A stretch of DNA of 64,000 nt from an uncultured Candidatus Melainabacteria bacterium (lineage in GTDB: Bacteria; Cyanobacteriota; Vampirovibrionia; Gastranaerophilales; Gastranaerophilaceae), in assembly GCA_949902595.1 (NCBI GenBank), contig CATLDC010000004.1:62001-126000 (forward strand), read 5' to 3'. Under the pieces are notes generated by a model. It saw only the letters and a list, made by a program, of their open reading frames with translations, was not told where the DNA came from and made no database searches. This document shows, one piece after another, positions 34,420 through 49,695 of this stretch. Numbering within the stretch: the first letter of the stretch is position 1; each line of letters begins with the position of its first letter. A program made the position numbers and the translations under genes.

Positions 34420-35523
34420 AAATTCTGAAAATGTGGAATTGTATAAGTATAGTGGTTCAAGGATTGATGTATGAATATTAGTACAAACCTCGCATCTCTC
34501 GTCACGCAAAATTCACTCAAACGTTCAACATTAAATCTTAATGAAGCCATAGAGCGCATGACGACTGGCTTCAAAATTAACCATGCAAAAGATAACGCAG
34601 CCAACTACTCTATTTCCAATAAATACTCAACCAAAATAAGCGCCTATGAAGTGGCGGAAGACAATGCCATGATGGGGCTTGACTTAGTCAGCACAGCCTC
34701 GGGCACCCTCGACCTTATTGAAGAGCGCGTTTCGCGACTAAGATACCTCCAGGAACAGGCTCTGAACGGTACAAATGACCAGAAGGCTCTGGATGCAATC
34801 AATGCAGAGTGTAACACTATTGTAGATGAGATTAACCGCATATATTCAAGCACGGAATACAATAACATCCCGTTCTTTTCTTATGAGGATAATAATGCAC
34901 CTTCTGAAACAGTAAAGAAAGCTGACTCATCAACGATTTTCGGTCAGCTTGGGATTGGAGACAGCAGTTTTTCTATCTATGATTCAAGCAATAACCTTGT
35001 AATTACCTATGATACGCTTGAGACTGACAGTATTCACGACTTTTTTGATTCACTTGCAAACCATGGATTGCAGGGGACAATTAATAATGGCGTGATTTCT
35101 ATTACTTCACCTGACGGGAGCTATATTGAAGGCGATTTGGCGGATGCACTGGGGATTTCCAAAATTACGACCCCGTATATAGAGTCCACAAACCAGTCGT
35201 CTACTGCTGATATTACTTACACACTTGTAAGCAATGCGACTGAATCAACTACGTTTGGGGAACTCGGCGCTTCCGGCACTGTTACTATTCGTGACAAGTA
35301 CGATAATCTTGTCGGAAGCTTTGAAACAGATTCAACAACCACTATTTCAAGCTTTTTTAACCAGCTTGATGCACTAGGGATAAGCGGAAAACTGACTAAC
35401 GGTGTGATAACTCTAACAAGTTCTGCCGGTAATTATGCAGCAGCGAGCGGAGCTATTGCGGATTTGGGGATAGGGCTTGTGACTTCTGACGGGAAGCGCA
35501 CAACCGGTGTGGAGCAGACTTCG

Positions 35524-35700
35524 ACCTTGAAAGTAACCACTACCACCTCATCAACCCAGACAGACACTATCTGGCAGACGACAACAACAGAGTCAACAGC
35601 AACCAACACAATCTGGACAACCACGACTACTTCTACGACCCAGACCAATACAATCTGGGTTACAACAACTACGTCAACTACGACCACTAACACTATTACA
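35524..35700 (+). repeat. Thr-rich tandem repeat, first block
   Basis: Encodes three to four copies of a ~17-residue unit of the form T-x-T-D/N-T-I-W-x-T-T-T-T-S-T-T. It resembles O-glycosylated mucin-like linkers. Related blocks follow near 36850-36930 and 37970-38230. Confidence 0.8.
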
Positions 35701-36059
35701 ACTCCAGGGACTTATGTAACACAGAGCACTGGTGCTTTCTTGAAAGAGATAGCGCATATTGATACCACCAATATGACTGCGCTTTCAGAAGTTGCCAACA
35801 AAAATGTTGATCTTGCAGCCGGTACTTATGCAATAAAGACTGTCGAGGATTTAGAAATCCTATCTCAGATGAGCAATGACTACTTGCTTAATAACACTTA
35901 CACATTTGTTTTAGGTTCTGATTTGGACATGGCTGTAGCCGGATATTCTGCTGAAACCGGAAAGAGTTGGACTCCGATTATAAATGGCGGGAGTTATTGT
36001 TTTGACGGTAACGGTTATGCGATTTCTAATTTATACATAAACGCTCCGGAAAGCTCTTA

Positions 36060-36690
36060 TGTAGGACTTTTTGGTTGTTTATCCGGCGGCGGGGTGACAA
36101 TAAAAAATCTTGGCCTGGAAGATGTCTATGTCTCAGGTAGAGACTTTGTTGGCGGCTTAATTGGCGGAGGAGACAGCTTTACAGCAGAAAACTGCTATGT
36201 TACAGGGCATGTGATTGGTAATAATACGGTCGGCGGTTTAGTTGGACAGGGTGGATATACAACTATTTTTGGTTGTTATTCAGAAGCTACTGTAAATGGA
36301 AATTCGACTGTTGGCGGGTTTGGCGGACTTATAGATACAGACAGCAAGATAGAACAGTGTTATTCGGCTTCCAATGTTACAGGTACTCAAAATGTTGGTG
36401 GATTGCTAGGACAGTTATACATGAATGCAGAAATGTATGATTCTTATGCAATGGGAAATGTTACCGGAGGTGATAATACCGGCGGCTTGGTAGGTATCTC
36501 TAGTGATAACGGACATTTTGAACATGTTTACGCTTCAGGTACTGTTTCTAGCTCTTCTGCAAGTGCAGGCGGGCTTATAGGGTTTTCTGATATGAATACT
36601 TATGTGTATGATGCATACGTTTTGGTTAGTAATGCGTCTACTATAAGCGGAATATTTTGCGGATATAACGAGAATGAGGTTTTAGAATTA
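36060..36690 (+). repeat. GLUG repeat block 1 within the giant flagellin
   Basis: Encodes about six repeats containing GG(L/F)(I/V/L)G spaced 25-30 residues apart with intervening CYxxGxVxG segments, typical of GLUG motifs of surface adhesins and some secreted peptidases. Confidence 0.75.
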
Positions 36691-37254
36691 GACCACTGTT
36701 ACTATAATCAGGGACTAGAATATGACTATGTCGGTTCTATGGGCGAAAATGGAAGCTTAACATCTTCTAATATCCAGTCATATACAGGCTCTGTGCCGTA
36801 TGTATTTACTAAAGCAACAAACTATCAAACAACAGTTGGCTCAAAGACTGAGTACATCGTTAGTACAGTTTGGCAGACAATGACGACTTCTACAACCCGA
36901 ACAGAGACTGTTATGGTCTCTACGACTTTGAGCGAAGAAAGAACAGATTTTTTGGCGGTTTTGACTCAGAAAGATACGAGCGGATTGCTGTCTGTATCAG
37001 AAATTAACGGAAAATCTTCGTTTGATGGTATCACATGTGCTGTACGTACGACAGAAGACTTGCAGCTTATTGCACAATTGACGAATGCCGGTAACGAGTT
37101 TTCAACAACGACTTTTATTCTTGCAAATGATTTGGACTTCACCGGCATTGATAATTGGACAAGTATTGGAAACGAGTTTTATGGTTTTAAAGGTTCTTTT
37201 GATGGTAACGGTTACGTAATATCTAAGCTTAATATTGATTCGACAAATGACCGT

Positions 37255-37800
37255 ACCGGTTTGTTTGGTACTTTGTATGGTTCAGTCTCAAATTTGGGGT
37301 TGGAAAATGTTAATGTAAGCGGAGGCACTTATTACACAGGCGCTCTGGCAGGCTATGCAGAATCCTGTCAAATCACCAATTGTTATGCAATAGGTCAGGT
37401 AAAAGGTGCCAAGTACTATGTTGGCGGGCTAATCGGAGGAGGTACTTATGTCGGTATTTATAATTCATACTTCGGAGGTGAAGTCAGAGGATATGACTCA
37501 GTAGGTGGAATCGCCGGTGTGTTGACTATGGCCAATGTTAGTTCTTGCTTTTTTAATGGTACCATTTTGGGTAACGAGCAGTTAGGAGGAATCACCGGGT
37601 ATTATGAAACCGAGCCTGGTTTTGATACGGTTGTAGATTGTTACGTCAAAGGTAAAATTAATCTTCTTTCAGGCTCACCTAATAATGTAGGCGGGTTGTT
37701 TGGCTATTTGGAATGGGCAGAACTGAAAGTTAATCATTGCTATGTTTTAACAGAATCTCCAAGATTAAACGGTCTATTTGCCGGTGGCTTAAATGAGTAC
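37255..37800 (+). repeat. GLUG repeat block 2 within the giant flagellin
   Basis: Encodes about five repeats such as GGLIGGG, GGIAGVL, GGITGYY and GGLFGYL with CY/CF-containing spacers. It parallels block 1 and both are preceded by a matching segment (FDGNGYxIS.L.I), indicating internal duplication of a large module. Confidence 0.75.
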
Positions 37801-37969
37801 AGCACTATTACTATTGAAAATTCTTATTATGGAACATTCTATCAAAGTTCAACCCTCCCTACATACGACGGTGGTCTGAAAGCTACTACCCAAAGCCAAT
37901 TATACACAGGAACCCATCCTTTTACACCAGACAGCACTTCCTTTTTGATGTATACAACAATTACTGAAC

Positions 37970-38230
37970 CCAAAACTCAAACAACAACTGTCTGGATAAC
38001 CACAACATCAGAGGCTACCAGGACAGAGGCTGTTACAACACCTATTTCAAATACAATCCTTGAAACAGAAACTATATGGGAAACTACAACCACTGCGACT
38101 ACTAATACAGAGACCCTGTGGGAAACCACTACAACCTCGACTACTGAAACTGAAACAATCTATACTACAACCACGACTTCCAGCACCCAAACCAGTACAA
38201 TTTACACCACAACAACGAGCGGTGCAACCG
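37970..38230 (+). repeat. Thr-rich tandem repeat, third block
   Basis: Encodes about five units of the form ET-E-T-(I/L)-W/Y-x-TTTT-x-x-T, closely related to the first block. At DNA level the units are imperfect, so slippage would be limited. Confidence 0.75.
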
Positions 38231-39367
38231 GAACCTCTACTTTCAACGATATCGGACTTGCCTCGAATGGCTACATAACAGTGTATTCAAATGGCACCAG
38301 TGCAATAATGACCGTAAAAACGAGTTCAACACTTGCGGATTTGACCGGATTTTTAAGCAGCCATGGTATTACTGCTTCAATTTCGAACGGAGTTCTCGAA
38401 GCCAGTCCGCAAACAGGCTCTTATATTACCGGCATGTCAGAGAATTTGCGTACTGCGCTCGGCTTTGACCCATCGAATTATACAGTGTCAGAAGGCAAAG
38501 GCAACACTTCTTCCAACAAGTATTCAAGCACTATTAATACATCATTGACCGGTGATGTTACATTTGCTAGTGCGGGCGTTTCCGGCGGAACAATTAAGGT
38601 GCATAAAGCTAACGGAAGCTATGCTACTATTAAGATTACAGGCACAGACACCATGCAAACATTGCAGGAAAAGCTCGAGGGCTTAGGATTTACAACAGAT
38701 TTTTCTAATAACAAGCTTACCGTAAACGGCAAAGGTAATCTTTATATTGAAAGCAGCACACTTTCTCTCCTTAATCTTGGTGCAGTGAATAAAGTTGAGA
38801 AAACTAATGTAACAAACTCATCAAGCAATCGTTTAACCTACAAAGAGGCGCTCATGACTCTTGCTGCTGTAGTGCCTGATGAAGCACCTTCACTTGTTTT
38901 CAGGTCGGTATAGATTCTAATGAGGCAAGTCAAATTAGTGTAAGTATCGGGTTTTCTATTAACAATATTGAACAATTCAGAAATATCGGGCTTGATTTTG
39001 ATACAGATTATTTAACAGAAATAGATACTCTTCTCTCCCGTATCAATAAAAAACAAACAGAGTATGGTGCCGCGCAAAACAGGCTTGAAAGTGTGCTTGA
39101 AGAGATTTCGATTCATTATGACAATCTTGTGTCATCACGTTCAACGATTAAAGATGCTGACATCGCAGAAGTATCCAGTGAATACATTCGTCAGCAGATA
39201 CTACAGCAAGCTTCTGCTACTTTGATGGCTACGGCGAATCAGAATCCGGCGTTTGCTCTGGGGTTGTTGTAGAACAATTGCCTCCTCGCGCATTCTAGCT
39301 CCCCAGCTGCTCTTGTTGCGCAAACTCATTTTTTGCGCTACAATAGGTGAAAGCAAGGAGAGAGTTT

Positions 39368-39646
39368 ATGTCAGACGAAAAAGTCGTGAAAATCGGCGCG
39401 AGGGGAAGAAAAAAGGGCGAAAGCATACCTTATCACCACCACAACCACGAAGGAATTATTGAGCCTGTGGTTTGCAGCTTTTGCGGGCGTTCAAACACAG
39501 AGGTGCTCAAAATGGTTAAGGGCCCGGGGGTGAATATATGCTCCGAATGCACGATGATTGCTGTACAGTACTTAATCATGCAGGATAGAATGCTTTCTGA
39601 AGAAGCGCAGCAAATTCTTGATACTTTCTGGGGTAAGAAAAATTAG
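39368..39646 (+). CDS. Standalone ClpX-type zinc-binding domain protein
   Basis: 92 residues. Residues 35-80 are a ClpX N-terminal zinc domain: CSFCGRSNTEVLKMVKGP, then NICSECTMIAVQYL, giving CxxC-x18-CxxC. There is no AAA+ domain. The lead is basic with an H-rich patch (YHHHNHEG). In ClpX this domain dimerises and binds substrates and adaptors such as SspB. A solo copy could act as an adaptor, decoy or regulator of ClpXP. I moved the start to 39368, five bases after AGGAGAG. It lies 13 bases before the helical protein gene, so the two are probably co-transcribed. Confidence 0.85.
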   Translation: MSDEKVVKIGARGRKKGESIPYHHHNHEGIIEPVVCSFCGRSNTEVLKMVKGPGVNICSECTMIAVQYLIMQDRMLSEEAQQILDTFWGKKN

Positions 39647-39658
39647 CGGAGAGAAAAT

Positions 39659-41254
39659 ATGAACAAGATTCAAATAAAAGCTGAAATACTGGCGACTCTG
39701 ACAGCGCTTTCAACTTCAATCCAGCCGGATGCTTCGCTTCTGACTGGCTTGAAGCTTATAGAAGACAAAAAAACTGTTCTTGATGTTCTTATAAGAGAAC
39801 TCGTTAATGCGCCGGAACAGCGCGCTTTGCTTATTTGCTGGCTTCTAACCGAACTTATTGACAAAGATACGCTTAATGACGAGCTCTGGAACGTTATCAA
39901 GGCACCTGAATACAACGACCATGTCAAAATGATTGCTTTTAATATGCTGAAAGATTTGGGCAACAAGATTGACTACGAGGTTATAAGCGGGTATTTTGAA
40001 CAGTTTAACGAGCTTATAAACAAAGAAACAAAAGAACTGCTGGAAACGGCGATTATGAATCCCGAAGCCCAGATTGATTTCATGGACTTTTTGAATGCAA
40101 TCGGGGATGAAGATAAGAAAATCCTGATTAAGTCTCTGGAAGAGGATTACGCAAATGACGCGCTTGCAAACATACTTATACCGGTTTTCTTGTACTACAT
40201 GAACACAGATGTCGGAAATGTTGCGCTTGAAATCCTCGGCCGCTCAAAATCCCAGCTTGTTTATCACGCTATTGAAAACGCACTTTCTTTTGCTCCCGAA
40301 GAGCTCAAGAGTCGTATGAACAAGGCTCTTTCCGAACTCAAAATGGCAGGAATCAGGGTTGATAACACTGTAGAGTTCTACAGAAACATTCTCAAAGAGT
40401 CTGCGCCATACAAGACTTATGTTTCTTTCCCTGACGGGCATGGAAACATGGCGATTATTTTCTCACGCATTCGCGCAAACAGAACTCTTCAATTCCTTGC
40501 AGTGGTTGTGAATCCAAGGTACGGTATCCTCGATTCGTTCGGGTTCAACAACATGACCGAGCGCGATTTCTTCAAGATTGTAGACAAATTCTATAACTAT
40601 CAGGAAAAATACGAAATCAACGCGGGAGTTGCAAAGTATTTACTAAATCAGGCGGAAGAAAATTCTCACATAAACGGGGAGCTGATTCCTTATGAGTACA
40701 TCTGCTGGCAGAGCATCCTGCTTGATGTTGAGGAAGAAAAGCCTAATCTTTATCTTGAGAAAAAAGAGCTTAACCAGAAAGACATAGACAAGCTTTGTCT
40801 TAATGATTATGTTCAGACTTGGTTCTTTGACGAGGTCACCTCAGATGAGTTCAAGACCTTTATTGATAAGCTTTCTGCTGAATTTAAGGCGAACAATTTT
40901 GACGTGGATTTGGACAAGTTTGTTGCTGACAATTTTGACAGTATTTACACGGTAAAAGAGCTTGCTTACAAGCTTGTAATTTTTAACATGGCGGCTTATT
41001 TGAGGATGCTCAAAGGTGATATGGAGCTTGCAGAGCTGTTCTTCTCGCTCGGGTCTAATTACGCATTCCTTACGAATATAATTAGAAAGAGTATTTACGA
41101 ATATTATGTAGGAAAGCGCTACATTCTCAAGAACCAGAGAAAGGCTTCCAACATTTTTGAGAAGCGCATGCAGCCAAAAGTCGACGATTTTGAGCTTTTG
41201 CAGCTTGATATGATAATTTCAAGCATTGAAGCAAGGTGGGTTGACAATGCATAA
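39659..41254 (+). CDS. Large alpha-helical protein of unknown function
   Basis: 531 residues without signal peptide or membrane helix. The sequence is almost all amphipathic helices, with HEAT-like spacing in the first 230 residues (LVNAPEQRALLICWLLTELI, VKMIAFNMLKDLGNKI). A beta-containing segment (about 255-295: YVSFPDGHGNMAIIFSRI, LQFLAVVVNPRYGILDSFGF) sits in the middle. I do not recognise a family. It sits between the solo ClpX zinc domain and ruvX (overlapping ruvX by eight bases), in a conserved-looking operon. A scaffold or adaptor role is only a guess. Confidence 0.85.
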   Translation: MNKIQIKAEILATLTALSTSIQPDASLLTGLKLIEDKKTVLDVLIRELVNAPEQRALLICWLLTELIDKDTLNDELWNVIKAPEYNDHVKMIAFNMLKDLGNKIDYEVISGYFEQFNELINKETKELLETAIMNPEAQIDFMDFLNAIGDEDKKILIKSLEEDYANDALANILIPVFLYYMNTDVGNVALEILGRSKSQLVYHAIENALSFAPEELKSRMNKALSELKMAGIRVDNTVEFYRNILKESAPYKTYVSFPDGHGNMAIIFSRIRANRTLQFLAVVVNPRYGILDSFGFNNMTERDFFKIVDKFYNYQEKYEINAGVAKYLLNQAEENSHINGELIPYEYICWQSILLDVEEEKPNLYLEKKELNQKDIDKLCLNDYVQTWFFDEVTSDEFKTFIDKLSAEFKANNFDVDLDKFVADNFDSIYTVKELAYKLVIFNMAAYLRMLKGDMELAELFFSLGSNYAFLTNIIRKSIYEYYVGKRYILKNQRKASNIFEKRMQPKVDDFELLQLDMIISSIEARWVDNA

Positions 41255-41645
41255 GGTGATGGCGCTTGATGTGGGTACGAAGCGTATAGGGATTGCGCTT
41301 AGCGACTTTATGCAGGTGATTGCGACCCCGCATTCTTTTATTTCGCGTGTGCCTGAGGATAAGGCAATAGAGGAAATTACTAAAATTGCAAAAGAAAACC
41401 GGGTTGAGAAGATTGTTGTCGGTGTTCCGATAAACATGGACGGGTCACAAGGCTTTCAGGCACAGGATTGTATCGATTTTTCACAAAAACTTGTTGGTTT
41501 TGATATAATATTAGAAGATGAAAGGCTGACTTCTGAAGAAGCTGAACAGAGGCTCCGTGAGAGGAAAGTCGATTTTCGAAAAAATAAGGGACTTGTGGAT
41601 ATGGAAAGTGCCTGTGTAATATTACAACAGTATTTAGGAAGATAA
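41247..41645 (+). CDS. ruvX: Holliday junction resolvase RuvX/YqgF family
   Basis: 132 residues. RNase H-like fold with MALDVGTKRIGIALSD (first catalytic Asp), VVGVPINMDGS, LEDERLTSEEAEQ and a closing VDMESACVILQQYL (last Asp). YqgF proteins act in 16S rRNA end maturation and possibly in recombination. The start was set at 41247, with AAGGTGGG upstream, not 41226. Followed by a DUF1292 gene as in many Firmicutes. Confidence 0.93.
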   Translation: MHKVMALDVGTKRIGIALSDFMQVIATPHSFISRVPEDKAIEEITKIAKENRVEKIVVGVPINMDGSQGFQAQDCIDFSQKLVGFDIILEDERLTSEEAEQRLRERKVDFRKNKGLVDMESACVILQQYLGR

Positions 41646-41648
41646 ATT

Positions 41649-41933
41649 ATGAATGAAAACGAAGAATTAGAACAAAATTTTGTAGAAATCTACGGCGATG
41701 ACGGTAACATCGTTAAGTGCGAAATCTATGATGTAATAGATTTTGAGGACAAAACTTACGCACTCCTGCTTCCGCTTGGTGAAGACGAAGAAGACGCAGA
41801 CTCAGAAGTAATTGTTATGGAATATGTTGAGGAAGGCGAAGAAGGCTACTTCCAGAACATCGAAGACGATAACGAGTTCAAAAAGGTTTGCGAATACATA
41901 GAATCACTTAGTGACGAAGACGACGAGGAATAA
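41649..41933 (+). CDS. DUF1292 (YrzB-like) protein
   Basis: 94 residues, strongly acidic. VEIYGDDGNIVKCEIYDVIDFEDKTYALLLPLG is the typical core of DUF1292 proteins, which often neighbour ruvX. Function unknown. The gene starts after a three-base gap and ends five bases before the Clp-N gene. Confidence 0.88.
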   Translation: MNENEELEQNFVEIYGDDGNIVKCEIYDVIDFEDKTYALLLPLGEDEEDADSEVIVMEYVEEGEEGYFQNIEDDNEFKKVCEYIESLSDEDDEE

Positions 41934-41938
41934 TAGTT

Positions 41939-43276
41939 TTGTTTGAAAGATTTACTGAAAGAGCAGTTAATGTAGTGAGCGAGTCACAGAGACTTGCTGC
42001 GGAGACCGAATGTTCCGAGGTTATGCCGGAACATCTTTTGCTTGCGCTTGTAAGAGAAGCAAAAGGCGTTTCATTGAAACTTTTTAGAATGTACGGACTC
42101 ACCGCAGATGGGATTCAGCAGGAAGTGGAAAAATACCTTATTAAAAAACCTGCTAAGTCTGAAACAATTCCTTTTAGCCGCTCTTTTAAAGAAATCTTAA
42201 AACACACGGTGGATTTGGCAAGCCGCTCCGGAAACACAAACATCCTTTTTGAACACCTGTTTTTGTCTGCAATAACCGATAAAAATTCTAATATTCAGGC
42301 AATTTTGCAGAGCTTCAATTTTGATATTTATAATTCAAGAGAAATCCTTACAAAGCTTGTTCAGAGAAAGATTAAACGCCTTGAGCATCCGGAGGTTGAA
42401 GAGGATGAAGAGAAAAACAGCTCTTTTGAATCTGTTTATGAAGGCGAAGCCCTTACAGGTGTGTTTGACAGGGCTGTTTCAAAGCTTTCTGCAAAAGGGT
42501 ATGAAATTCTAGGTACAGAGCAGATAATGGCTTCGATTCTTGAAACAGCTGATTCTGAACTGGTTAAGATCATTAACAAATACGGGCTTGATGCAGAGAA
42601 TTTTGAACAGAAGCTTGCAGAACAGCAGTCACGTCAGGCTGAATACGAAGACAAGAAGATTATTTTCACCCCGAACGCGTTTTTGATGATGAATTCAGCT
42701 TTGCAGACCGCAAAAGAGCTGGGCTCTTCTGTGATTACGCCGGAGCACATTGTGCTTAGCGTATTGAAAAACAAGAAGGGATTAGCTTACGATGTAATCA
42801 AGTCTCTGGGAATCAACGGGGAGAAGCTTTCAGAAGAGATACTTAAGCCGATTGAAAAACAAATGCCTGAAACGCTTACCATTATGAAGCTTGCAAAAGA
42901 AGAGGCACGCAGAATCGGGCGTAATGTTGTCGGGACAGAAATGTTCCTTCTTGGAATCATTGCAGAAGGCACAAGCGTTGCGTTTGAGGTGCTTAATGAT
43001 TTGGAAATCACAATGAAAGACGCGCGACTTGTGGTTGAAAACCTTGTTGGATATGGTAATGAGTACTTTGACAAGGAAATCGTGTTTACAAACCGTGCAA
43101 AACGTGTGCTTGAAAAAGCTTGGCTTTCTGCTAAGAAATCCAGCAAACAAAGGATTGAGGCTGTTGATTTGCTGCTCGCAATCTTAGACGAGCCAAATTC
43201 GCTTGCGATGAAGGCTCTTGACCAACTCGGGGTTGATGCTGTTGAAATTAAACACGGGATTCAAGGTGTCAGATAA
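41939..43276 (+). CDS. Triple Clp-N (ClpC-type repeat) protein without ATPase
   Basis: 445 residues. It starts MFERFTERAVNVVSESQ as in ClpC, which supports the TTG start at 41939 behind GAGGAA. Six Clp-N half repeats form three complete Clp-N domains: about 1-148, 168-305 and 308-443. The third is nearest to ClpC (GRNVVGTEMFLLGIIAEGTSVAFEVL). A short acidic linker (about 150-165) separates the first. No Walker motifs or AAA+ domain exist. Clp-N domains bind substrates and adaptors; a free set of three could compete for or recruit adaptors. Follows DUF1292 closely, and tilS starts four bases later. Confidence 0.9.
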   Translation: MFERFTERAVNVVSESQRLAAETECSEVMPEHLLLALVREAKGVSLKLFRMYGLTADGIQQEVEKYLIKKPAKSETIPFSRSFKEILKHTVDLASRSGNTNILFEHLFLSAITDKNSNIQAILQSFNFDIYNSREILTKLVQRKIKRLEHPEVEEDEEKNSSFESVYEGEALTGVFDRAVSKLSAKGYEILGTEQIMASILETADSELVKIINKYGLDAENFEQKLAEQQSRQAEYEDKKIIFTPNAFLMMNSALQTAKELGSSVITPEHIVLSVLKNKKGLAYDVIKSLGINGEKLSEEILKPIEKQMPETLTIMKLAKEEARRIGRNVVGTEMFLLGIIAEGTSVAFEVLNDLEITMKDARLVVENLVGYGNEYFDKEIVFTNRAKRVLEKAWLSAKKSSKQRIEAVDLLLAILDEPNSLAMKALDQLGVDAVEIKHGIQGVR

Positions 43277-43279
43277 AAC

Positions 43280-44626
43280 ATGATTAATCGTGTAATAGAA
43301 TTTTTAAGAAAATACAACTTGCAGGATAAAACAATTATTGTCGGCTTTTCGGGCGGGTATGATTCCATGTGCCTTGTTGATATCCTGTCCAAAATCAAGG
43401 AGCAGCCGGAATTTTTTGAGATGACTGTTGTTGCAGCGCACTTCAACCACAACTGGCGCGGAGACGAGTCTTTGCGTGAGCAGGAGATTTGCCGCCTGTT
43501 TGCAAGCGCTAAGGGGATGGAGTTTTACACCAAGGATTCACCAAGAGGTGTGAAAAAAACAGAAAACGACGCGCGAATTGCGCGCTACGAGTTTTTTGAA
43601 GAAGCCTATGACGAATTTGACGCAGACGCCGTGTTTACCGCTCATAACAGGGATGATAATGCGGAAACTGTGTTGTACAGAGTTATAAAAGGCACGGGAA
43701 TTGTCGGGCTTAAGGGGATTGCAGAAAAGCGAGACTACTTCTACAGACCGCTTTTGCAGACTAAGCGCTCTGAAATTGTTGAATACTGTGCAAAGAACAA
43801 TCTTTCGCCTAACAACGATTCGTCTAACTCGAACACGGCATACCGCAGGAATTATTTGAGGCTCAATGTTATTCCGGTACTTGAAAAGATTAACGAGGGT
43901 GTGAAGGATGCGCTAAACACGCTTTCTGTTGTGGCGTCCAGTGACAACGAGATTATTGAGGAGTATTTGGGTGCGATAAGGCCAAGGGTTATTGTTGACG
44001 AGAGGATTGTCTCATTAGAATACAAGAAGCTTTCCAAGCCTGTTAAAATGCGCTTTTTGCATGAGTTTGTACAGTCACTTGGCTTGGATTACGATTTTAA
44101 GAAAATAAACGAGATTTTTGACTTTATTGAAACCAATATAACCCAGAGAAACGGCAGCACGCTTTCTCTTGCTTCTGCGCAGTGGCTTTATGCAGACGAG
44201 AAGGTTGTGGAAAGTATTCCGCGCAAGAAAAAGCCGGAAGAAGCTAATCAGGTTTCGATATTGATAGACGGAGAAGGTGAGTACAGGGTTGGTGAGCACA
44301 AGTTTATCCTGCGGCCTTACACGGAAGAAAACCTGTTTGTGTTTCCGGAAGCGACTTCAAACTTTGCTTATGTTGATTTGAGCGGAGTAAAATTCCCGCT
44401 TGAATTACGCAACCGCAGGGAAGGTGACACAATAAGGCCGTTCGGGATGTCTGGTTCAATGAAGCTTAAGAAATACCTTAATTCAAAGGGGATTCCGCGT
44501 CATAACAGGGATGAGATTCTGCTTCTTGCGGACAAGGACGAGATTCTCTGGGTTATGGGAACGGGTTTGAGTAACAAAATAGGGGTGCGCAAGGCGCCGA
44601 CGCATGTTGTGGAGTGGGTAATATAA
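43280..44626 (+). CDS. tilS: tRNA(Ile)-lysidine synthase
   Basis: 448 residues. PP-loop ATP site VGFSGGYDSMCLVDIL at about 22-37, then VVAAHFNHNWRGDES and HNRDDNAETVLYRVIKGTG, all typical of TilS. C-terminal domain has RNRREGDTIRPFGMSGSMKLKKYL. It changes C34 of tRNA-Ile(CAU) to lysidine so it reads AUA. In many Firmicutes tilS precedes hpt, as here; the next start overlaps this stop by one base. Confidence 0.95.
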   Translation: MINRVIEFLRKYNLQDKTIIVGFSGGYDSMCLVDILSKIKEQPEFFEMTVVAAHFNHNWRGDESLREQEICRLFASAKGMEFYTKDSPRGVKKTENDARIARYEFFEEAYDEFDADAVFTAHNRDDNAETVLYRVIKGTGIVGLKGIAEKRDYFYRPLLQTKRSEIVEYCAKNNLSPNNDSSNSNTAYRRNYLRLNVIPVLEKINEGVKDALNTLSVVASSDNEIIEEYLGAIRPRVIVDERIVSLEYKKLSKPVKMRFLHEFVQSLGLDYDFKKINEIFDFIETNITQRNGSTLSLASAQWLYADEKVVESIPRKKKPEEANQVSILIDGEGEYRVGEHKFILRPYTEENLFVFPEATSNFAYVDLSGVKFPLELRNRREGDTIRPFGMSGSMKLKKYLNSKGIPRHNRDEILLLADKDEILWVMGTGLSNKIGVRKAPTHVVEWVI

Positions 44627-45156
44627 TGCAAATGATTAAAGAGAGTGATTTAAAAGTTTTGTTTGAGGCTGACCGGATTCAGGATGCCATAGAAAAACTC
44701 GGTTCTGAATTGAACGAGATTTATGCTGATGAAGAATTGTACCTGATTTGTGTACTCAAGGGCTCTGTGATGTTTATGGTGGATTTATCCAAACATCTCA
44801 AGATGCCTCTCAAGATGGAGTTTATACGCCTTTCAAGCTACGGTTCGGGTTTTTCTTCAACAGGGAAGGTGAATGCTGTTGATATTTCGCTTCCTGATTT
44901 GAACGGGAAAAATGTTTTGATTATCGAAGACATAATTGATACAGGGCATACGGCGAAATTTCTGGTAGATTTTATCAACCTGAATTTCAAGGCAAAGTCA
45001 TTGAAGTTCTGTTCGCTGCTTGATAAGAAAATCAAGCGCGAGGTCGAAATCGACGCTGATTATTATTGTTTTGAGGTGGATGACAAGTTTTTAGTCGGCT
45101 ACGGGCTTGACTATGACGGGTATTATCGCAATTTGCCGTATATCGGGTATGTATAA
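44626..45156 (+). CDS. hpt: Hypoxanthine phosphoribosyltransferase
   Basis: 176 residues. LICVLKGSVMFMVDLSKHL near the start, the PRPP loop VLIIEDIIDTGHTAKFL and FLVGYGLDYDGYYRNLPYIG at the end define purine salvage HPRT. It joins hypoxanthine or guanine to PRPP. The start at 44626 overlaps the tilS stop (TAATG). ftsH, which often follows, is not present; a hairpin and a convergent gene follow. Confidence 0.95.
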   Translation: MQMIKESDLKVLFEADRIQDAIEKLGSELNEIYADEELYLICVLKGSVMFMVDLSKHLKMPLKMEFIRLSSYGSGFSSTGKVNAVDISLPDLNGKNVLIIEDIIDTGHTAKFLVDFINLNFKAKSLKFCSLLDKKIKREVEIDADYYCFEVDDKFLVGYGLDYDGYYRNLPYIGYV

Positions 45157-45186
45157 ATCAACCCCTCTATTTCTAGAGGAGTTGAT
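45157..45186. terminator. Hairpin between convergent hpt and EF-hand genes
   Basis: ATCAACCCCTCTA, loop TTTC, TAGAGGAGTTGAT with one mismatch. There is little T tract on either strand, so it may be a weak terminator or a 3'-end stabilising hairpin. Confidence 0.5.
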
Positions 45187-45199
45187 AGATAAGAGTTAT

Positions 45200-46042
45200 T
45201 TATTTCAATAAATAGTATGCTTCTTCAAGAGCCGTTACTCTGCCTGCTCTGGCAGCTGCAAGTGTGTCATCTAGTTTTTCGTAATGTAAGCCATGTTTAG
45301 TTGCGTAGTCCTGCATTACATTGACTAAGTGTTTACGCACCTTTGCCTCGTATTCAGGATAGTCTTCGTGACCTTCAGGTCTATATGTTACTTCGGATCT
45401 TGAAGGATGAACAGCGCACTTGTATATGTTTGCAATATTTGGATTATCACTCAGATACTCTTTTTGAAACTCATTAACAACCGTAATAAGATTTTCTGCA
45501 TTAATTCTTTGTATGTTTTTGTAAGCGTTATCGTAGTCATATTCATATCTGGTATTTGTTCCAAATAATCTCCCTGGTTCGGTTATTTTGTTTATTTTCA
45601 TATTGAGGATAGAATTAACGATAGCACGAGCCTCTTCTCTTGAGTGTCCAATGGCTTTGCTGCCGGTAGCTTGAGCCGGAGTCTTTTGCCCCGATGTTTT
45701 AGCCGGTGTGTCGCATTTTTTCATGCCTAGAGCGAGCTTTGCAAATTCATCAATATTAAGTCTACCATCACCGTTTGTATCGTAATCGGATAATTTAATT
45801 TGGCTTTCTGTGCCAAGATAGTTTTTTAATTCGTCGGCTGAAATGTAATAATCAGTCGGGTTTGTGTCAGCGTTTCTAAATTCGTCTGTGATGAACTGGT
45901 TAAACTTGTCCTGCAACTTGTTGTTCTGCGCGTTTAATACAACGGCAGAGCCCATAATTGCTGTTGCGGCTAATAATGTTTTTGCACCTTTGCAGGCAGA
46001 AATACCTGAAAACATTGGTGAGCTGATGTTTTGAATCTTCAT
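45200..46042 (-). CDS. EF-hand protein with N-terminal SPMFSG motif
   Basis: 280 residues. MKIQNISSPMFSGI shows the Pro-Phe-Gly start motif shared by several proteins here; a hydrophobic Ala-rich segment follows (about 22-38: TLLAATAIMGSAVVLNA), which could be a membrane anchor or an internal signal. An EF-hand pair lies at about 65-105: ISADELKNYL and the calcium loop DTNGDGRLNIDEF. The C-terminal half is helical with SREEARAIVNSIL and no recognised domain. Possibly surface-linked and calcium-binding; inferred. Confidence 0.8.
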   Translation of the reverse strand: MKIQNISSPMFSGISACKGAKTLLAATAIMGSAVVLNAQNNKLQDKFNQFITDEFRNADTNPTDYYISADELKNYLGTESQIKLSDYDTNGDGRLNIDEFAKLALGMKKCDTPAKTSGQKTPAQATGSKAIGHSREEARAIVNSILNMKINKITEPGRLFGTNTRYEYDYDNAYKNIQRINAENLITVVNEFQKEYLSDNPNIANIYKCAVHPSRSEVTYRPEGHEDYPEYEAKVRKHLVNVMQDYATKHGLHYEKLDDTLAAARAGRVTALEEAYYLLK

Positions 46043-47727: not shown

Positions 47728-48315
47728 ATGAGTTTTGTACCTGTAGTAATTGAACAATCCAGCAGAGGCGAGCGTTCATTCGACATCTTCTCAAGACTTT
47801 TGAGAGAAAGAATTATCTTTTTAGGCACACCTGTTGACGATATGGTGGCAAACTTAATCGTTGCACAGCTTTTATTGTTAGACAGTGAAAACCCTGAAAA
47901 AGATATCATGTTATACATCAACTCTCCTGGCGGAAGTGTTACTGCGGGCTTAGCTATCTATGATACAATGCAGCACATCAGAGCCGATGTTCAGACAATC
48001 TGCTTAGGTCAGGCTGCTTCTATGGGCGCATTCCTGCTTTGCTCAGGAGCAAAAGGCAAGAGAATGGCGCTTCCTCACTCAAGAGTACTTATCCACCAGC
48101 CTTTAGGCGGCGCGCAAGGTCAGGCAACTGATATTGAAATTCAGGCGCAGGAAATCTTGAGAATCAAGAAGACTTTGAACGAAATCATGGCTTCAAACAC
48201 AGGTCAATCAATCAAGAAGATTGAGAAAGATACTGACCGTGACTACATCATGACACCGCAGGAAGCTCTTGAGTACGGTATGATTGATAAAGTCATCACA
48301 AAAGACGCTATGTAA
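47728..48315 (+). CDS. clpP: ATP-dependent Clp protease proteolytic subunit
   Basis: 195 residues. Catalytic Ser in [14 protein letters not shown], His in [15 protein letters not shown] and Asp in [28 protein letters not shown] is the oxyanion region. It forms the tetradecameric chamber served by ClpX, encoded next. AAAGG precedes the ATG. Followed by a 9-bp hairpin and clpX. Confidence 0.98.
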
Positions 48316-48363: not shown

Positions 48364-49695
48364 ATGTCATCAAACGACAGACTAAAATGTTCATTTTGCG
48401 GTAAAACGCAGGATCAGGTAAAAAAATTAATAGCAGGTCCGGATGTGTTCATCTGCGACGAGTGCGTTGAGCTTTGTAACGAAATTCTGGACGAAGAGTT
48501 CTTTGAAGGTAAAGAAAAGAATCCTGAAAAACATGAGGAAAAGGCTGTTGAAACAGACGAAAAAGCGATTCCAAAACCTCATGAAATCAAAGCTTACCTT
48601 GATCAGCACATTGTTGGTCAGGATGATGCAAAAAAAGTTCTCTCTGTTGCGGTTTACAACCACTACAAACGTTTGAAGCACAACAAAAAAGAAGACACAA
48701 ACGGTGTTGAAATCCAAAAATCAAACATTCTGCTTGTAGGCCCTACAGGAAGCGGTAAAACACTTCTTGCGCAGACTCTTGCAAAAATGCTTGATGTTCC
48801 GTTTGCGGTGGCTGATGCTACAACACTTACAGAAGCTGGTTATGTTGGTGATGATGTTGAAAACATTCTTCTAAGACTATACCAGAACGCTGACTTTGAC
48901 CCTAAAAAAGCAGAGCGCGGTATTATCTACATAGACGAAATCGATAAAATTGCAAGAAAATCTGAAAACACCTCTATTACAAGAGACGTATCCGGTGAAG
49001 GCGTGCAGCAGGCTTTGCTGAAGCTTATTGAAGGTACAATATCAAACGTACCTCCACAGGGCGGAAGAAAGCACCCTCAAGCTGATATGATTCAGATTGA
49101 CACAAGCAATATCCTGTTTATCGTGGGCGGTGCGTTTGTTGATTTGGATAAAATCATTGAACACAGGGTTAAAGACGGCTCTTCAATCGGGTTTGGAAAA
49201 TCTGCTCCAACTCAGGCTGAGAAAGAACAGGCTGCTGCAAGACTGCTCAAAAAATTGCAGCCGGAAGACTTGCTGAAGTTCGGTCTAATCCCTGAATTTA
49301 TCGGGCGTATTCCTGTTTACGCAGTGCTTGATGCTTTGGATGAAAGCACACTCAAAATGATTCTTACAGAACCTAAGAATGCAGTTCTTAAGCAGTACCA
49401 GTGCCTGCTTGCAATGGACGGGGTTGATTTGGAATTTGAGCCGGAAGCAGTTGATTTGATTGCTAAAAAGGCTATCAAGCGCAAAACCGGTGCAAGAGCG
49501 CTGCGCTCAATTGTCGAAGAATTGATGCTTGATGTTATGTACGATATTCCAACCAAGCACGATATTACAAAGTTTGTGATAACAAAGGACATGGTTGAAA
49601 AGCAGGAAGAAATCGAAAACAAAGCAGAGTTGATTCATCTTCCACAGAATAATACCACTGATTTGTCACAAAAGACAAGAGCAGAAATCGCATAA
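48364..49695 (+). CDS. clpX: ATP-dependent Clp protease ATP-binding subunit ClpX
   Basis: 443 residues. Zinc domain [18 protein letters not shown]...ICDECVELC at 10-40, Walker [17 protein letters not shown] near 124, Walker [14 protein letters not shown], and [16 protein letters not shown] with the sensor region. It unfolds tagged proteins and feeds ClpP. The N-terminal zinc domain is the same type as the solo domain encoded at 39368. AGGAGA precedes the ATG. Confidence 0.98.

Follow-up and report, generated by a model that had tools for sequence, protein, structure and literature searches.

The stretch analysed here, referred to as the window, comprises 64,000 nucleotides on contig 4 of a Candidatus Gastranaerophilales metagenome-assembled genome (2.1 Mb, 41 contigs), and within its positions 39368–43276 two lineage-specific Clp recognition modules that lack a motor lie side by side. 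One consists of zbd, a solo ClpX-type zinc domain protein, and its neighbour unk, a larger protein with a HEAT-type N-terminal half; the other is clpN3, a protein of three Clp-N domains. The strong new fact is the zbd–unk pair, and the strong correction to an earlier, sequence-only reading of this DNA is that clpN3, clpP and clpX stand outside any fixed cluster.

The zbd–unk pair

In Pfam, zf-C4_ClpX (PF06689) matches zbd at 2.4e-13 over residues 35–68 of 92, and the protein shares with the zinc domain of ClpX (1ovx, 2ds5) the four cysteines and the CSFCG...GPxVxICxEC core. Unlike ClpX, zbd lacks an AAA+ module with the ClpP loop, and because of its size of 92 aa and the absence of an AAA match in Pfam, its assignment as a ClpX was ruled out. 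It further differs from ClpX by a conserved N-terminal peptide, an extra C-terminal helix, and a gene that is tied to unk and not to clpP. Among 19 family members, the four Cys and most of the GPxVNICSEC core are invariant, as are K5 and R12 in the N-terminal peptide and Q67, Y68, L84, and W88 in the C-terminal helix. With these invariant residues, zbd is more than a fragment of clpX. Its N-terminal peptide (K-V-V-[SKE]-[LFI]) may resemble the peptide through which SspB attaches to the zinc domain of ClpX. The source genome contains only two ClpX-type zinc domains, those of zbd and of clpX itself.

Short proteins that, like zbd, carry the ClpX zinc domain alone are the solo “ClpX C4-type zinc finger protein” of Streptomyces (e.g., WP_329224237.1) and members of the phage families phrog_6797, 5259, and 20296. 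For the Streptomyces protein, no unk partner was seen in a 2-kb stretch from one plasmid, and the pairwise match covers 32% of zbd. Other arrangements of the domain were noted in passing. A class-level genome (G080) encodes a different type of solo zinc-domain protein, 145 aa long (L103:8305-8742), a congeneric genome (G051) has two ClpX-type zinc domains in each of two repeat-rich-looking proteins of 748 and 539 aa (L105:3589-5835, L106:6697-8316), and in G047 a second, 53-aa copy of the ClpX zinc domain directly precedes clpX (L107:3838-3999).

Searches of Pfam, NCBIfam, and PDB sequences yielded nothing significant for the unk protein of the window, and its assignment to a known family was rejected since neither domain nor sequence searches gave a family match. 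It was modelled with AlphaFold2 from 44 sequences (predicted local distance difference test, pLDDT, 84.9; predicted template modelling score, pTM, 0.70), and the C-terminal half was also modelled alone (pLDDT 90.9, pTM 0.85). Residues 1–240 are predicted to form a HEAT solenoid as in HEAT-repeat proteins, with Z up to 9.3 (114 residues, 3.1 Å) against repeat proteins; HEAT_2 (PF13646) is found in 9/24 relatives (best 4.1e-6), the window protein itself falling below the Pfam cut-off. The C-terminal half, modelled as four antiparallel strands followed by helices, appears to have no convincing counterpart in the PDB. Foldseek returned nothing at E < 0.001 with either model, and the best VIA match of this half is the helical part of 1xkp_A (Z 6.0, 80 residues). 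The sole recurring theme is the WGR domain of PARP proteins, at Z under 5 (4.0–4.8 in most rows, 72–82 residues), and values under 8 can reflect merely a common arrangement; the WGR model has no Pfam match on unk or its relatives. A viral origin was rejected after a viral scan that yielded 274 pattern matches and no relative. Outside the class, two weak partial matches (G103, G125; E ~1e-16) lie in unlike gene contexts and give no usable identity. By eye, a separate HEAT-repeat-like gene is seen just upstream of zbd–unk in five loci of other families (L045, L050, L051, L053, L055).

The distribution of zbd was followed with a profile made without ClpX and run on 292 genomes of the phylum. All 121 genomes from other genera of the family have zbd, as do the one other member of the order (1/1) and 4/9 genomes of the window's genus, its own included. 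Listed matches from the five genomes of the class-level family and from elsewhere in the phylum score as ClpX-like (E ~1e-8 to 1e-12), and those outside the order, where a frame is given, lie mostly in frames of ~430–460 aa. No solo protein of the zbd type from outside the order is among the matches listed, although a weak solo relative elsewhere is possible; judged by these matches, zbd appears restricted to the order. A search with unk in the same genomes gave 131 strong matches (9/9 in the genus, 121/121 in the family, and 1/1 in the order). In 125 of the 126 genomes that have both genes, zbd is immediately upstream of unk, with a gap between the aligned parts of 1–148 bases (median 17), and in the sole exception both genes are at contig ends. 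Likewise, zbd precedes unk in 24/24 sister-genus loci, and zbd, unk, and ruvX are consecutive in 16/16 loci from other families of the order, where a DUF1292 gene is next after ruvX in 14, the remaining two contigs ending first. The two genes are thus a near-obligate, order-specific pair, and the earlier suggestion that the helical unknown could be a partner is borne out at the level of gene order for zbd.

In two of four class-level loci (L056, L058), unk stands before ruvX without zbd; of the remaining two, one is truncated where its contig stops. Because these relatives have unk–ruvX without zbd, unk is the older gene and stood first beside ruvX. Most simply, zbd would have been added afterwards, but still ahead of the divergence of the order's families. 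Of 80 loci taken from public genomes, zbd is present in 39 and absent from 38, the remaining 3 being cut; all 38 loci without zbd belong to the window's genus as judged by identity (69% or more). On the tree of unk, the label “without zbd” takes seven changes, of which the starred branches force at least four; zbd was probably lost several times in this genus.

clpN3 and the extent of the gene run

Pfam finds Clp_N in five stretches of clpN3 (1.1e-47), and no AAA+ model matches. The stretches make up three double Clp_N domains (residues ~1–145, 165–300, and 310–445), and the three thirds, each of which aligns with the N-terminal domain of ClpC (2y1q, 5gui), match ClpC N-domain structures with best E values of 2.5e-17, 5.9e-14, and 5.1e-30, respectively. 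The double Clp_N domain is shared with ClpC and ClpB, but the two AAA+ modules of those proteins are absent from the 445 aa of clpN3, which has Clp_N matches only; unlike ClpC, it has three N-domain copies per chain and no AAA+ rings. E105, E269, and E334 of clpN3, at ClpC-type pocket positions, are invariant in 9 diverse members. In Bacillus subtilis ClpC, Glu32 and Glu106 bind phosphoarginine; they align with E31 and the invariant E105.

Two kinds of Clp-N-type protein without an ATPase resemble clpN3. Mycobacterial ClpC2 is matched through 8ad9 and 9p2p, but it combines an N-terminal dimerisation domain with one drug-binding, Clp-N-like C-terminal domain and represses its own gene, whereas clpN3 is filled by three Clp-N domains. 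Plastid ClpT1 and ClpT2 are accessory proteins of the Clp protease, and 4y0b and 4y0c are matched by domain 3 of clpN3 at 1.3e-5 and 9.2e-5, but they are single-domain proteins, confined to plastids and associated with the ClpP ring, whereas clpN3 is triple and bacterial. In the class-level genome G080, two solo Clp-N proteins of 248 and 254 aa were seen (L101:8627-9373, L102:8593-9357), at places separate from each other and from its solo zinc-domain gene.

The gene for clpN3 occurs in 58/58 genomes of the genus (one cut by a contig end) and in 19/22 genomes from other families of the order, and is of full length in 55/60 family genomes; no full-length copy was found in the class-level genomes (0/17). 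In 25/38 family genomes it is found no more than 3.5 kb from unk, and in 13/38 it is on another contig. Of the 24 sister-genus loci, 22 have it downstream, one lacks it, and one is on a contig that stops too early. In the other families, no zbd, unk, or ruvX match is near clpN3 in any of the 16 fetched loci. Hence, clpN3 is order-wide and mostly independent of zbd–unk.

The window does code at 39368–43276 for the tight run first described (zbd, unk, ruvX, a DUF1292 protein, and clpN3, by open reading frames and Pfam), but the run is longer than first reported, since it begins at zbd and extends into tilS and hpt. These genes, together with clpP and clpX, are as follows.

39368..39646, + strand: zbd, solo ClpX-type C4 zinc domain protein, 92 aa (open reading frame, Pfam, family alignment)
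39659..41254, + strand: unk, 531 aa, predicted HEAT-type solenoid at residues 1–240 and alpha/beta plus helical domain at 241–531 (open reading frame, model, structure comparison)
41247..41645, + strand: ruvX (yqgF), ATG at ~41247, TTG at 41226 also a possible start (open reading frame, Pfam)
41649..41933, + strand: DUF1292 protein, 94 aa (open reading frame, Pfam)
41939..43276, + strand: clpN3, 445 aa, three double Clp_N domains, no AAA+ module, TTG start (open reading frame, Pfam, structure matches)
43280..44626, + strand: tilS, continuing the run (open reading frame, Pfam)
44626..45156, + strand: hpt, last gene of the run, ATG at 44626 (open reading frame, Pfam)
47728..48315, + strand: clpP (open reading frame, Pfam)
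48364..49695, + strand: clpX with its own zinc domain (open reading frame, Pfam)

The gaps are 12 bases between zbd and unk, 3 between ruvX and the DUF1292 gene, 5 between the latter and clpN3, and 3 between clpN3 and tilS; ruvX overlaps unk, and tilS overlaps hpt. A promoter and terminator scan over 38800–45300 yielded nothing usable. Pfam matches RuvX at 6.2e-38 and DUF1292 at 8.2e-15 on their respective proteins. Across eight congeneric loci (a ninth, near-identical locus is incomplete), the proportion of nonsynonymous differences (pN) is 0.07–0.31 for the seven genes from zbd to hpt, against 0.52–0.99 for synonymous ones (pS). With pN this far below pS, the genes are not chance open reading frames, and they are under purifying selection. 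The zinc and Clp-N domains are confirmed as detached: zbd and clpN3, neither with an AAA+ match, are under selection and occur lineage-wide.

The genome also holds ordinary clpX, clpP, clpC, and clpB, the last two being assigned to two further Clp_N open frames (835 and 871 aa) that lie on a different contig. The distance of about 4.5 kb given earlier for clpP is correct (its start lies 4451 bases past clpN3), the interval being occupied by an opposite-strand open reading frame (45200-46042) and a flavodiiron-type gene. Within the fetched stretches, clpP and clpX are downstream in 9/20 genus loci and 0/16 other-family loci, on which grounds their proximity was rejected as meaningful. The expectation of a conserved gene order therefore holds for zbd–unk, only locally for clpN3 (25/38 family genomes, 0/16 other-family loci), and not for clpP and clpX. 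Since it is confined to some members of one family that clpN3 joins the run, no fixed Clp cluster is present, and the view of the whole as one conserved Clp recognition cluster was rejected on the placement of clpN3 and clpP/clpX in relatives. Upstream of zbd, within 34471-39272, a 1480-aa flagellin-like open reading frame with Flagellin_N and GLUG repeats stops at 38913, and what looks like a normal C-terminus of flagellin continues in another frame to 39272, indicating a frameshift that is either real or assembly-derived.

Possible roles of the two modules

Published sources describe the ClpX zinc domain as folding independently and dimerising in isolation (PMC9035409), and an SspB-derived peptide as binding ClpX with a dissociation constant (KD) of ~65 nM, peptides that carry the SspB-derived sequence having similar affinity for the isolated zinc domain irrespective of its position in the chain (PMC12373786). 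With these properties, a free-standing zinc domain might pair up with ClpX or vie with it for adaptors. Among free Clp-N proteins, ClpC2 is described as a sponge in mycobacteria (PMC10030653). If, by analogy, these behaviours extend to the Gastranaerophilales, zbd–unk may work on ClpX as an adaptor or anti-adaptor, and clpN3 may serve as a decoy or scaffold of the ClpC type, a reading that we favour over its rivals but hold tentatively, as possible but short of probable. In such a mechanism, zbd would dimerise with itself and with ClpX zinc domains, or take their adaptor peptides, and unk, as its HEAT-solenoid partner, would carry cargo or block docking, so that the pair would act as an adaptor or anti-adaptor of ClpXP. 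In turn, clpN3 would act as a multivalent decoy, holdase, or scaffold, binding adaptors or substrates of the ClpC type but leaving them unprocessed; it would have entered the run with zbd–unk only afterwards, in some members of one family, which does not imply a joint function. A bolder version, in which zbd–unk is a new two-component ClpXP adaptor and clpN3 does likewise for ClpC with three docking domains, we consider improbable. There, zbd would enter the crown of ClpX by forming a hetero-dimer, or capture adaptor peptides, and would tie unk as a HEAT/alpha-beta cargo receptor to the protease.

Several observations weigh against a Clp-directed role. The nearness of clpP and clpX is not conserved, and ClpS has no match in the source genome, which bears on the ClpC-type adaptors. 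The repeated changes of state within one genus imply that zbd is dispensable there, and the occurrence of unk without zbd, in the two class-level loci and 38 genus loci, argues for a role of its own. A milder point, against tight co-evolution of unk with zbd, concerns relaxed sites, i.e., columns conserved with zbd and variable without it. Where zbd is lost, unk shows no relaxed patch, with 4 in 531 columns, similar to the controls ruvX (2/134), DUF1292 (2/94), clpN3 (2/445), and tilS (2/448), though the losses may be recent. A search for arginine kinase gave no match in any control genome and is hence uninformative.

Because ruvX is the older neighbour of unk, the strongest alternative is that zbd–unk and RuvX (YqgF) together act on nucleic acid, perhaps in ribosomal RNA processing or on recombination intermediates. 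The zinc domain would then have lost contact with ClpX and be a small module for dimerisation or for nucleic acid; we regard this alternative as doubtful. The position of unk directly before ruvX, both in the two class-level loci without zbd and in all 16 other-family loci, points to ruvX and not to a Clp gene as the older partner, but such adjacency can be inherited without shared function. The beta part of the C-terminal half of unk aligns weakly with WGR domains, which bind DNA ends, but at these Z values and with no WGR match in Pfam, the likeness may be a common arrangement. According to PMC11119718, zf-C4_ClpX is also fused to sigma factors in cyanobacteria; the core of zbd, however, retains the ClpX pattern.

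It is unlikely that the free zinc and Clp-N domains are decoys that keep phage proteins or peptide antibiotics away from the N-domains of ClpX and ClpC. The ClpC2 sponge does protect mycobacteria from cyclomarin A, and phage proteins are proposed by the authors as further targets (PMC10030653). Besides the three PHROGs families with solo ClpX-type zinc domains mentioned above, phrog_35667 has a solo Clp-N domain (E 3.7e-35), and although the function of these families is mostly unknown, they indicate that phages use the same detached parts. However, outside one genus zbd is near-universal in the lineage and not patchy, and it is tied to unk; no defence model matches, and a defence system was rejected. 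Finally, it is quite improbable that the adjacency of the Clp-related genes is incidental, as among unrelated housekeeping genes sharing an operon: clpN3 lies elsewhere in 13/38 family genomes and 16/16 other-family loci, and tilS, hpt, ruvX, and the DUF1292 gene are ordinary genes, so that this explanation holds for clpN3, but an adjacency kept in 125/126 genomes, as for zbd–unk, is not incidental.

Free Clp docking domains are already known singly, as in ClpC2 and ClpT; in the open-access literature, we found no paper describing a HEAT protein with a lone ClpX-type zinc domain as its partner, or a protein of three Clp-N domains. If the two-component adaptor were true, a lineage in whose genome ClpS was not found would have reassembled the selection of Clp substrates out of docking domains set free from their ATPases. 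Phages, to judge by their solo zinc domains, may turn the same trick against hosts. More broadly, a triple Clp-N protein and a zinc-domain/HEAT pair across nearly the whole order would show recognition domains of AAA+ proteases turning into stand-alone regulators, and an uncultivated gut lineage gains a concrete, testable question on how Clp targets are chosen.

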